Shown here: one piece after another, positions 3,704-63,435 of the stretch
Position numbering within the stretch: position 1 is the stretch's first letter
Layout: every line of letters begins with the position of its first letter
Assembly: GCF_937859865.1 (NCBI RefSeq)
Contig: NZ_CALMAT010000130.1
Span: forward strand, 1 to 64,000
DNA: 64,000 bases
From: an uncultured Mucilaginibacter sp.
Lineage (GTDB): Bacteria; Bacteroidota; Bacteroidia; Sphingobacteriales; Sphingobacteriaceae
Reading direction: 5' to 3'
Position numbers and translations under genes: made by a program
The notes under the pieces: model-generated
The model's input: the letters and a program-made list of their open reading frames with translations, nothing else
Database searches by the model: none
Told to the model about the DNA's origin: nothing

Positions 3704-5794
3704 ATGGCAAAAAAAGCAGTTTCCGCAACAGATAAAGCAATAACCAAGGATGCTTCCACCAGACAAAAAAAAGTACCGGCTACTAAAAAAGATGTGGTAA
3801 AAGAAGCATCGGCAGAAAGTAAAAAACCAGAAATTGTGGTTTCGGAAACCGGGTTTGCCAAAACAGAAACCAGCCAAACCATCAGCTTAAACCCGGTTGA
3901 AGTTTACAGCCGTTTTACCGATTTTGATATTAGTTTGTTTAAAGGCGGCAAGCATTACCGTTTGTACGAACTGTTTGGTTCGCACACGATGGAATATAAA
4001 GGTGTAACCGGAACATATTTTGCCGTTTGGGCGCCCAATGCAGAAAAAGTTGCCGTTATGGGCGATTTTAACGGTTGGGATAAACACAGCCATCCGCTTT
4101 TTGTGCGCTGGGATGGTTCCGGTATTTGGGAAGGTTTTATCCCGCACGTAGGCGATGGCGCAATTTATAAATATGCCATCCGCTCTTTTTATGGCGAAGA
4201 ACTGGAAAAAGGCGATCCGTTTGCGTTGCGCTGGGAAGAACCGCCGCGCACCGCTTCCATTGTAACGCACACTTATTTTGAATGGCAGGATGCCGCTTGG
4301 ATGAAAACGCGCCATCAGCATAACGCTTTAACTAGCCCATACTCCGTTTACGAGGTGCATTTTGGTTCCTGGGCGCGCAGCCCGGAAAACCCTGAACAAT
4401 TTTTAGGTTACCGGGAAATGGCCGATGTGCTAGTGAAATATGTAAAAGACATGGGTTTTACCCATGTAGAGTTTATGCCGCTGGCCGAGCATCCGTATTA
4501 TCCAAGCTGGGGCTATCAAATTACCGGTTATTTTGCGGCCAGTACGCGTTATGGTTCCCCGCAGGATTTGATGTTTTTGGTTGATCAATTTCACGAAGCC
4601 GGGATTGGTGTGATAATGGATTGGGTGCCTTCGCATTTTCCGGGCGATGCACACGGCCTTTTCCGTTTTGATGGCACCAGTTTGTACGAGCATGAGGATC
4701 CGCGTAAAGGATTCCATCCCGACTGGAAATCCTACATTTTTAATTACGGCCGCAATGAGGTTAAATCTTTTTTAATCAGCAACGCCTTGTTTTGGCTGGA
4801 TCGTTATCATATTGATGGCTTGCGGGTTGATGCCGTAGCTTCCATGTTGTACTTAGATTATTCGCGCGAGGCAGGAGAGTGGGAGCCAAACATTTACGGC
4901 GGCAACGAAAACCTGGAAGCCATCCAGTTTTTGCGCGAATTTAACGAAGCTGTTTACGGTAATTATGCCGATGTGCAGACCATTGCCGAAGAATCTACTT
5001 CTTTCCCCGGTGTTAGCAAACCAACTTATTTGGGCGGCTTGGGTTTTGGTATGAAGTGGATGATGGGCTGGATGCACGATACCATCAAATATTTTCAGGA
5101 AGACCCGATCAACCGGAAATACCATCACCAGCAAATCACTTTCAGCTTGCTGTATGCTTTTACCGAAAACTTTATGCTGCCGCTTTCGCACGATGAAATT
5201 GTGTACGGTAAGCATTCCATGATCAATAAAATGCCGGGCGACGAATGGCAGAAATATGCCAATTTACGCGCTTTGTACAGCTACATGTTCACGCATCCGG
5301 GAGCAAAACTGCTCTTTATGGGCGATGAGTTTGCGCAATCAGCAGAATGGGCTTTTGGCAAATCGTTGGACTGGCATTTGCTGCAATACCGGCCGCACAA
5401 AGGCATGCAGGATTTGGTGAAAGCGTTGAACCAACTGTACAAAACCGAACCGGCTTTGTACGAAAAAGCTTTTACGGACGAAGGTTTTGAGTGGATTGAT
5501 GACGGCAACGCTACGGACTCTGTGCTGCTTTACATTCGAAAAGGGAACGACCAAAAAGATGATTTGGTTGTGGCTTTAAATTTAACGCCGGTTGTACGCA
5601 CCGGTTTTCGTATCGGCGTGCCTACCGCCGGAACGTGGAAAGAAATTTTTAATTCCGACGATTTGGATTTTTGGGGAAGCGGGATCATCAACCCGGAACC
5701 TTTAAGATCGGAAGACGTTGCCTGGAATTATCGAAACCAATCGGTGCAATTAACCTTGCCGCCTTTAAGCGTTTCGGTACTTAAAAAGGTGTGA
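3704..5794 (+). CDS. glgB: 1,4-alpha-glucan branching enzyme (GH13)
   Basis: 696 residues. It makes alpha-1,6 branches in glycogen. A CBM48-type N domain is seen at about 100-185 (FAVWAPNAEKVAVMGDFNGWD region), followed by the GH13 barrel: region I DWVPSHFP (about 306), region II GLRVDAVAS with nucleophile Asp376, region III AEEST with the acid/base Glu (429-430), and region IV LSHDEIVYGK (His496-Asp497-Glu498). The first ~55 residues are an unusual Lys/Ala/Ser-rich tail (MAKKAVSATDKAITKD...), histone-H1-like in composition and absent from classical GlgB. Single transcription unit; the TGA stop is immediately followed by a TAAAAACAGCAT motif and then a strong terminator. Confidence 0.95.
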   Translation: MAKKAVSATDKAITKDASTRQKKVPATKKDVVKEASAESKKPEIVVSETGFAKTETSQTISLNPVEVYSRFTDFDISLFKGGKHYRLYELFGSHTMEYKGVTGTYFAVWAPNAEKVAVMGDFNGWDKHSHPLFVRWDGSGIWEGFIPHVGDGAIYKYAIRSFYGEELEKGDPFALRWEEPPRTASIVTHTYFEWQDAAWMKTRHQHNALTSPYSVYEVHFGSWARSPENPEQFLGYREMADVLVKYVKDMGFTHVEFMPLAEHPYYPSWGYQITGYFAASTRYGSPQDLMFLVDQFHEAGIGVIMDWVPSHFPGDAHGLFRFDGTSLYEHEDPRKGFHPDWKSYIFNYGRNEVKSFLISNALFWLDRYHIDGLRVDAVASMLYLDYSREAGEWEPNIYGGNENLEAIQFLREFNEAVYGNYADVQTIAEESTSFPGVSKPTYLGGLGFGMKWMMGWMHDTIKYFQEDPINRKYHHQQITFSLLYAFTENFMLPLSHDEIVYGKHSMINKMPGDEWQKYANLRALYSYMFTHPGAKLLFMGDEFAQSAEWAFGKSLDWHLLQYRPHKGMQDLVKALNQLYKTEPALYEKAFTDEGFEWIDDGNATDSVLLYIRKGNDQKDDLVVALNLTPVVRTGFRIGVPTAGTWKEIFNSDDLDFWGSGIINPEPLRSEDVAWNYRNQSVQLTLPPLSVSVLKKV

Positions 5795-30962: not shown

Positions 30963-31205
30963 ATGGAAACTTCAGAAATCAAAAAAAAGCTGCACGATTA
31001 CATTGAGTTTGTAGCAGAAGAAAAACTAAAAGCAATTTATATAGTTTTGGAAAGCGATATTGAAAGCGTTTACAACCATCAGAACGATCCAAGATTTGTT
31101 GCCGAAACGGAAAGCCGGACGAAAAAACCGGAAGCCGGAACTGAAAAGGAAAACACTTGGCAGGAAGCAAAAGCAAAGGCTATGAAAAGGATTGTTGAGG
31201 GTTGA
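30963..31205 (+). CDS. Small helical protein, addiction-module/antitoxin-like
   Basis: 80 residues. METSEIKKKLHDYIEFVAEEKLKAIYIVLESDIES is an amphipathic helical N-terminus of the kind seen in small Bacteroidota antitoxin-like proteins; the rest is charged and probably disordered (TESRTKKPEAGTEKENTW). Exact -7 element upstream supports expression. A toxin gene is missing on either side: the next feature is a repeat element, then bacilliredoxin on the other strand. Either an orphan antitoxin or a stand-alone regulator. Confidence 0.6.
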   Translation: METSEIKKKLHDYIEFVAEEKLKAIYIVLESDIESVYNHQNDPRFVAETESRTKKPEAGTEKENTWQEAKAKAMKRIVEG

Positions 31206-31215
31206 TAATTTCAGA

Positions 31216-31425
31216 ATGCTTCTTTTACCGGCATAAATTAGGTGGAGTGGAAAGCAACTTCTTGTTTTTTAGAAACTTGCAGGGCCGCTTGTAAGGTATG
31301 CGCCCAGGAGCGTGGGGCTGAATGCCGCCCGGAGGCGATCCGGCATGCTTGATTTTTTGGTTCTTTTTTATCAAGAAAAAAGAACGGACAAAGAGAAAAC
31401 AAATTTATACCGATAAAAACAGCAT
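31216..31425. repeat. 210-bp composite element: motif-derived terminal inverted repeats around a GC-rich structured core
   Basis: Left end ATGCTTCTTTTACCGGCATAAAT... right end ...ATTTATACCGATAAAAACAGCAT; as inverted repeats these match at about 18 of 23 positions. The core is far richer in GC than its surroundings and holds two hairpins: ATGCCG...CGGCAT (31321-31347) and the perfect GTTCTTTTTT-ATCA-AGAAAAAAGAAC type stem (31360-31385). The core sequence resembles a repeat I recall as common and often mis-called as short proteins in Sphingobacteriaceae. Candidate non-autonomous mobile element or structured RNA. Confidence 0.6.
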
Positions 31426-31460
31426 GTAAATAAACTTCCTGCACAAAAATTCAGGAAATA

Positions 31461-31494
31461 AAAAAATCCGGCAAAATCAAATTCGCCGGATTTT
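31461..31494 (-). terminator. Intrinsic terminator of the bacilliredoxin gene
   Basis: AAAATCCGGC / GCCGGATTTT stem with a T run on the minus strand, 25 nt past the stop; a TAAAAACAGTAT copy (31508-31519) lies between stop and stem. Confidence 0.85.
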
Positions 31495-31518
31495 AATTTT
31501 ATACCGATAAAAACAGTA

Positions 31519-31929
31519 TTAGCAATATTGGTCGAAAGCACCAGCCAAATTATCGGCAATCATTTGTGCCGGGCGGCCTTCAATCTGGCGTCGTTCGATA
31601 ATGTGCACCAATTTTCCGTCTTTAAACAAAGCCATCGCCGGCGATGACGGCGGATAAGGCAGCATATAATCACGCGCTGTATCTACGGCATCTGTTTCCA
31701 TTCCCGCAAAAACAGTTACAAAACGGTCTGGCACTTTGCCGTTTTGCGTAGCCATTTTTGCAGCCGGGCGCGCATTGGCAGCCGCACAACCGCAAACCGA
31801 ATTCACCATTACAAAAGTAGTTCCCGGCGATTCGATGGCACTTTTTACATCATCGGCCGTTTTTAATTCCTGAAAACCAACTCTGGTCAAATCTTCCCGC
31901 ATCGGGGCAACTAAATATTCTGGGTACAT
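31519..31929 (-). CDS. BrxA/BrxB family bacilliredoxin (YphP-like)
   Basis: 136 residues from the ATG at 31929 (MYPEYLVAPMREDL); the track adds nine residues. Thioredoxin-fold protein with the family's CGC active site (VNSVCGCAAANARPA). Bacilliredoxins remove bacillithiol from oxidised protein cysteines and are recycled through bacillithiol and the flavoprotein YpdA, a gene for which starts at 63542. A good promoter is readable on the minus strand: TTG-N21-TAGCTTTG at 31954-31985. Monocistronic. Confidence 0.9.
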   Translation of the reverse strand: MYPEYLVAPMREDLTRVGFQELKTADDVKSAIESPGTTFVMVNSVCGCAAANARPAAKMATQNGKVPDRFVTVFAGMETDAVDTARDYMLPYPPSSPAMALFKDGKLVHIIERRQIEGRPAQMIADNLAGAFDQYC

Positions 31930-63280: not shown

Positions 63281-63288
63281 TACTTTTG
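63281..63288 (+). promoter_or_regulatory. -7 promoter element of the SRP RNA
   Basis: TACTTTTG, an exact TAnnTTTG, five bases before the predicted 5' end of the RNA. I see no well-spaced -33 TTG. Confidence 0.65.
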
Positions 63289-63292
63289 TGGC

Positions 63293-63389
63293 GGGTAAGT
63301 CTTCTACGACCAGCTCCTCTTGAACTCCCTCAGGGTGGGAACGCAGCAAGGGTAGAGAGTTGTAGCGGTGCGATAGGAGTAGCTTACCC
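63293..63389 (+). ncRNA. ffs: Signal recognition particle RNA, small bacterial type
   Basis: 97 nt. Closing stem GGGTAAG / CTTACCC; internal part CTCCTCTTGAACTCCCTCAGG; the conserved SRP54-binding helix with GGGAACGCAGCAAGGGTAGA (the GGAA tetraloop/AGCA asymmetric loop region). Pairs with Ffh to target membrane proteins to the translocon. Strong -7 element just upstream, hairpin plus T-tract terminator 47 nt downstream. The minus-strand ORF at 63134-63391 overlaps it and is not real. Confidence 0.88.
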
Positions 63390-63435
63390 ATTTTTTATTT
63401 TTCAAACAACCTTTCCCTTTTTTAAATTATATCGT

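Follow-up and report, generated by a model that had tools for sequence, protein, structure and literature searches.

The locus examined here raises the question of what kind of unit a 210-base, GC-rich element with inverted arms represents. The element lies within a 64-kb stretch of Mucilaginibacter DNA, all of which was analyzed and is referred to as the window (Table 1). A sequence-only reading had described it as a mobile element bounded by terminal inverted repeats, carrying a possible structured RNA as cargo. The GC-rich core and both of its stems were confirmed at the positions proposed, with 69% GC over positions 31283 to 31347 compared to 41% in the window and 28% in the right flank. 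Inverted arms enclosing this core were also found (31216 to 31239 and 31402 to 31425; 24 nt, 83% complementary). The 210 bases are one copy of a previously uncatalogued repeat that sits between genes and is scattered across many Bacteroidota. A real multicopy, structure-forming repeat had been spotted correctly and bounded wrongly, and the unexpected part is that the "ends" of the element expose a genus-specific, uptake-like motif.

Table 1. Features at the element locus (window coordinates)
Feature	Position	Strand	Remarks
80-aa ORF	30963..31205	+	Orthologue of the congeners' gene that precedes the ParE-like toxin gene
210-base element	31216-31425		Coordinates of the sequence-only reading are correct
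Left arm, copy of the genus-specific hyperabundant motif, GAAGCA type	31216..31239	+	Core TGCTTCTTTTA 31217-31227
68-aa ORF through the element	31238..31444	-	...FFFLDKKEPKNQ...; judged no gene
Conserved 5' block of the F-type module	31293..31312	+	AAGGTATGCGCCCAGGAGCG
GC-rich hairpin P	31320..31348	+	GAATGCCG 31320-31327 with CGGCATGC 31341-31348, one mismatch
Stem ATGCCG/CGGCAT	within 31320-31348
38-nt motif, Bacteroidota-wide	31348..31385	+
Pairing S1, window copy	31348-31353 with 31370-31375		CTTGAT with ATCAAG
Pairing S2, window copy	31360-31369 with 31376-31385		GTTCTTTTTT with AAAAAAGAAC
Right arm, ACAG-type copy of this motif	31402..31425	-	Core TGCTGTTTTTA 31414-31424
Remnant of toxin gene 3' end (last ~30 bases)	31442..31471	+
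Third motif copy, ACAG type	31495..31519	-	Core TACTGTTTTTA 31508-31518

Other copies occur throughout the genome. Aligning the 210 bp to the whole genome gave 55 BLAST matches, of which ~30 take in the core and ~25 cover one end only, nearly all within positions 1 to 33. Genomic copies that start at position 1 end at query positions 171 to 192, and position 210 is reached by two partial copies only; the right arm is no constant component of the family. What oriented copies share is a constant unit of ~100 nt, made up of AAGGTAnCCnCCCAGGnGCG..., a GC-rich stem with a CCCGGAGG apex, and then CTTGATTTTTTGGTTCTTTTnnATCAAGnnAAAAGAACG. Statements of this kind about the whole genome are based on searches and on sampled stretches of a draft assembly.

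The family is intergenic and consists of two sub-types, named R and F. The stem of the F sub-type is GAATGCCG/CGGCATTC or GCATTTCG/CGAAATGC, that of the R sub-type is GACAAAAC/GTTTTGTC and relatives, and each module terminates in a motif of ~38 nt, CTTGAWTTTTTGnnnCTTTTTn-WTCAAG-nAAAAAGnnn. A common layout is an inverted pair, with R reversed at the left, F at the right, and the AT-rich ends facing outward. Among 43 F modules obtained from matches of one full R-F pair to two congeners, at least 24 had an R partner in this layout within 400 bp. The window copy is a lone F module without an R partner, and its hairpin P abuts the 38-nt motif, with one C common to both. Intergenic repeats of two further types, GAGATTGCCACG...GCAATGACG and TGTCATTCCGACCGCAGGGAG, adjoin 38-nt motif repeats at locus L053 (positions 2300 to 2400) and upstream of the R modules at L055 and L056.

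Folded alone, the window copy was not exceptional (RNA z = −1.3, DNA z = −1.8), so the case for structure rests on covariation among copies. The 38-nt motif contains two pairings that cross, S1 (CTTGAN with NTCAAG) and S2 (NNNCTTTNNN with NNNAAAGNNN), and these near-perfect crossing inverted repeats have CTTGA..TCAAG and CTTT..AAAG as their invariant parts. Across 54 distinct sequences, 98.8% of cells in S1 and S2 were paired, and 98 cells were changed on both sides, compared to 27.4 ± 3.6 in shuffled data, where 0 of 500 shuffles reached as high a value. The covariation score of 0.317 fell to 0.03 to 0.06 when partners were slid by 1 to 3 columns. Part of this sample was gathered with patterns that fix some of the paired columns, and such columns, being invariant, contribute nothing to the covariation. 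When instances were chosen by the 5' half alone, 257 of 262 had the S1 partner and 224 of 262 had the exact 7-bp S2 partner, although many of these 262 loci had earlier been gathered by a two-sided pattern. A third stem, P, often stands directly before CTTGA, with an exact 8-bp complement upstream in 51 of 237 instances compared to 0.65 expected, and its pairing is kept in 24 different sequences.

Because no linker separates S1 and S2, they may fold as a kissing-type pseudoknot or as two hairpins that alternate, and they may be unable to form at the same time; covariation means that both pairings are kept and says nothing about coexistence. The sequence-only reading was thus supported on two points, the existence of genomic copies and a core that behaves as a structure-forming unit, possibly an RNA, with real covariation.

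Two further counts bear on which strand folds. On the CTTGA strand, G.T pairs exceeded A.C pairs by 30 to 6 (18 to 6 among distinct motifs), a bias that fits single-stranded folding rather than reading of a duplex palindrome. In 107 of 167 cases, the 5'-side gene ran in the sense direction, and for copies flanked by co-oriented genes, sense led by 60 to 35. Since array copies are not independent of one another and the pair and orientation counts are modest, these figures are indications and no proof. An intrinsic terminator was considered and rejected, as the hairpin is not followed by a U-tract.

The 38-nt end extends far beyond the genus. A similarity search placed it in 24 of 60 relatives, spanning many families. 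With a strict pattern, 40 of the 297 phylum genomes scanned were positive, and the reversed control pattern had no match. Genomes carrying it include Pedobacter, Chitinophaga, Flavobacterium, Algoriphagus, Saprospiraceae, Tannerella, and others. A few metagenome-assembled genomes (MAGs) labeled as other phyla also match, including one Williamsia MAG, and these labels may be misassigned. Rfam 15 contained no family above its gathering cutoff for the element, either in the window or at 15 distant loci. A phylum-wide repeat that lacks an Rfam entry and covaries clearly in its structure offers a ready bait for the protein that reads it. A survey of mainly open literature returned no earlier description of such repeats or of uptake motifs in Bacteroidota. 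Phage origin was rejected after a phage collection gave no match, and the few plasmid matches were mostly to Persicobacter replicons. Integron-like cassettes were also rejected, since array units are near-identical tandem repeats or sit between ordinary genes. No characteristic neighbor gene was apparent at the fetched loci, where neighbors read by eye were varied and ordinary.

The history of the family was examined at the proB-proA locus, where all three species of the genus carry an R-F pair. Both modules are conserved there and the spacer between them has diverged. S2 shows compensatory double changes, reading GTTCTTTTGT/ACAAAAGAAC in this genome and GTTCTTTTCC/GGAAAAGAAC in congener G001. 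Such conservation suggests that the fold is under selection, or else that gene conversion has acted.

The best overall explanation, which we consider reasonably probable, is a REP/BIME-like family that lies amid uptake-like motifs and functions in folded, single-stranded form, as RNA or DNA. The window element would be a solitary F-type module of an interspersed noncoding repeat family whose unit in the genus is often bipartite and inverted, R-F, the AT-rich 38-nt motif standing at each outer end. In this view, the CTTGA strand would work as a folded single-stranded nucleic acid, hairpin P coming first and the two overlapping pairings after it, in one or the other of the arrangements named above. 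We infer that a putative protein supplied in trans likely recognizes this fold and so spreads the repeat, and the same putative protein would give the repeat an RNA effect in transcripts downstream of genes. Like the RAYT-associated REP, BIME, and REPIN sequences of enterobacteria and pseudomonads, these repeats are extragenic, multicopy, and hairpin forming, occur as inverted pairs of two sub-types in genome-specific families, and often stand behind genes. Unlike them, they are ~100-nt modules with a phylum-wide, crossing-stem 38-nt end, they have no conserved GTAG foot, and RAYT genes at the loci tested, except one, are not flanked by them.

A second possibility, clearly less probable than a REP/BIME-like family, is that the copies serve as RNA elements in 3' untranslated regions (for stabilization, processing, or attenuation) and are kept for this role, with mobility being secondary. 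Sense orientation behind genes and tolerance of G.U pairs are consistent with such a role, as are the proB-proA modules, where compensatory changes accompany conservation on both sides of a diverged spacer. A patchy distribution over 40 of 297 genomes, the tandem arrays, and the varied, ordinary neighbors argue against it.

Mobilization of a REP/REPIN-type element by a RAYT (Y1 transposase), comparable to the "atypical" structures of Bacteroidetes subclass 2.6, appears unlikely. It would account for two sub-types in inverted pairs, extragenic location, and genome-specific families, and atypical repeats do occur around Bacteroidetes RAYTs (PMC6006769). However, the motif lay within the examined stretch at only 1 of about 49 Y1_Tnp loci, the motif is missing from the sole Y1_Tnp locus of this genome, which has hairpins of another kind, and the foot varies among genus modules (GTAG 13, GTAT 8, GTAA 8, GTCT 5, GTCG 2, ATAG 1). 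PMC6006769 places "atypical secondary structures" beside RAYTs of subclass 2.6; these resemble the present repeats in phylum, in being structured, and in having copies elsewhere in the genome, and the two may be identical. They are set apart by the RAYT loci examined here that, with one exception, have no motif. Since PMC6006769 is compatible with RAYT action in trans, a RAYT rival keeps some weight. At L065 (contig C34 of this genome, positions 1110 to 1260), the sole Y1_Tnp gene adjoins a different palindromic repeat of the GCAACGGGTTTAAACCCGTTG type, which is probably that gene's own family. At L099/L109 (G003:C53), the 38-nt motif occurs as two inverted copies near a single RAYT-like gene, a proximity that could be chance or a genuine link.

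A binding site in double-stranded DNA, its overlapping palindromes recognized by a protein, is more unlikely still. Two near-perfect crossing inverted repeats with invariant segments are what such a site would look like, but the excess of G.T over A.C mismatches on one strand and the adjoining stem P, whose pairing is preserved in 24 different sequences, speak against it.

The arms described as "terminal inverted repeats" are not transposon ends. Each is a copy of TRCT(TC|GT)TTTTA, an 11-mer specific to the genus; the full motif has the consensus A-TRCT(TC|GT)TTTTA-YCRS-nn-WAAAWTT. In this genome TGCTTCTTTTAYC occurs 1,603 times, and in two congeners 1,515 and 832 times, compared to 0 to 5 copies in each of 57 other genomes, and it is about equally frequent on both strands, with no overall strand bias. 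The most common 11-mer of the window is TGCTTCTTTTA (41 copies), which also tops the 11-mers in sampled stretches of all three species at 31 to 79 per 100 kb; stretches sampled from seven further genera of the family had 0 to 1.7 per 100 kb. Of 70 motif copies in the window, 29 are inside predicted coding sequence, and 12 facing pairs lie within 200 bp. Examples can be seen at positions 863/943, 9700/9731, 33174, 39620/39685, 54197/54278, and 62236/62314. The ~93-bp elements, of which the 210-base element had been called a larger relative, probably also have copies of the 11-mer as their ends, in facing pairs, and that relationship was not upheld.

In both congeners, the window locus holds a pair of genes, the second of them toxin-like; in G002 its protein matches ParE (PF05016) with an E value of 9e-8. 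Here the element occupies the place of the toxin gene, and the copy is absent at this locus in the two congeners. The event was not a clean insertion, as sequence was also removed and the body of the toxin gene was lost. A search for an empty site found none that was clean, since the congeners carry the toxin gene there, and comparison of this one locus with the two congeners revealed no target duplication. Positions 30963 to 31471 correspond to a toxin-antitoxin-like module in the two congeners, from which the ParE-like toxin has been lost here; the 80-aa ORF is a probable antitoxin, with weak Pfam support from the G002 orthologue only.

A MITE-like, 210-bp transposon bounded by terminal inverted repeats, with RNA cargo, is thus largely refuted, and we give it very little credence. 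The core is indeed enclosed by inverted arms, and the copy is indeed missing from both congeners, but the right arm is absent from nearly all other copies, the arms belong to a motif with thousands of copies that is found in genes too without insertion, and the locus has neither a target duplication nor a clean empty site. A short minus-strand gene for a Lys-rich protein can practically be dismissed, because the 68-aa open frame has no Pfam match above cutoff and the stem-compensating changes and loop-length variation across copies do not follow codons.

The motif that makes up the arms arises by point substitution. In-gene copies aligned across congeners were conserved or, with one exception, differed by substitutions only. 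For example, the motif copy in the S-adenosylhomocysteine hydrolase gene differs from relatives by substitutions that include one amino acid change, with codons AAC TCT TTC in G001 and GCT TCT TTT here and in G002. The residues NSF are found in G001 and in 15 of 16 other family members; G014 has ASF but without the motif. The two core types swap by a double change at positions 3798, 7778, 44720, 59517, and 5795, and the orthologues of the third motif site (Table 1) are kept in congeners with 1 or 2 substitutions. Occurrence in genes and between them, origin by point substitution, and lack of overall strand bias resemble a DNA-uptake sequence, and the motif would most simply be one, accumulating by substitution. 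For Chi or KOPS-like signals, strand polarity along each replichore would be expected; motif totals are balanced, a statement about totals in a draft genome that is separate from replichore polarity. A ComEC homologue is present, and its family also occurs in 10 of 14 control genomes.

In the literature consulted, uptake sequences are described for Neisseriaceae and Pasteurellaceae only, and in both they are known from terminators (PMC13020248). Like the DUS and USS of these families, the flanking motif is clade specific, has a short core and an AT-rich tail, numbers thousands of copies over the two strands, inside and outside genes, is made by substitution, and forms facing pairs near gene ends. 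Unlike them, it belongs to another phylum, has no sequence relationship to either, and comes in two core types (TC or GT) that are interchangeable. Another member of the Bacteroidota, the flavobacterium Riemerella columbina, is naturally transformable and prefers its own DNA in competition, yet its top k-mers are only A/T rich, with no clear uptake motif (PMC7965970), in contrast to the present genus.

As a joint proposal, tentative and somewhat short of probable, this genus may have evolved its own uptake sequence, independent of those of Neisseriaceae and Pasteurellaceae, and Bacteroidota may hold an unrecognized class of structured repeats whose crossing-stem 3' end is read single stranded, as RNA or DNA, by a putative copying enzyme. 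The framing motif leads to a sharp prediction, namely competent Bacteroidota that preferentially take up DNA with an 11-mer of which they carry thousands of copies. If true, a further case of an uptake sequence would make the origin of such sequences, and their link to terminators, testable. Elsewhere in the window, positions 63286 to 63393 encode an ordinary small SRP RNA (RF04183, 102 bits).
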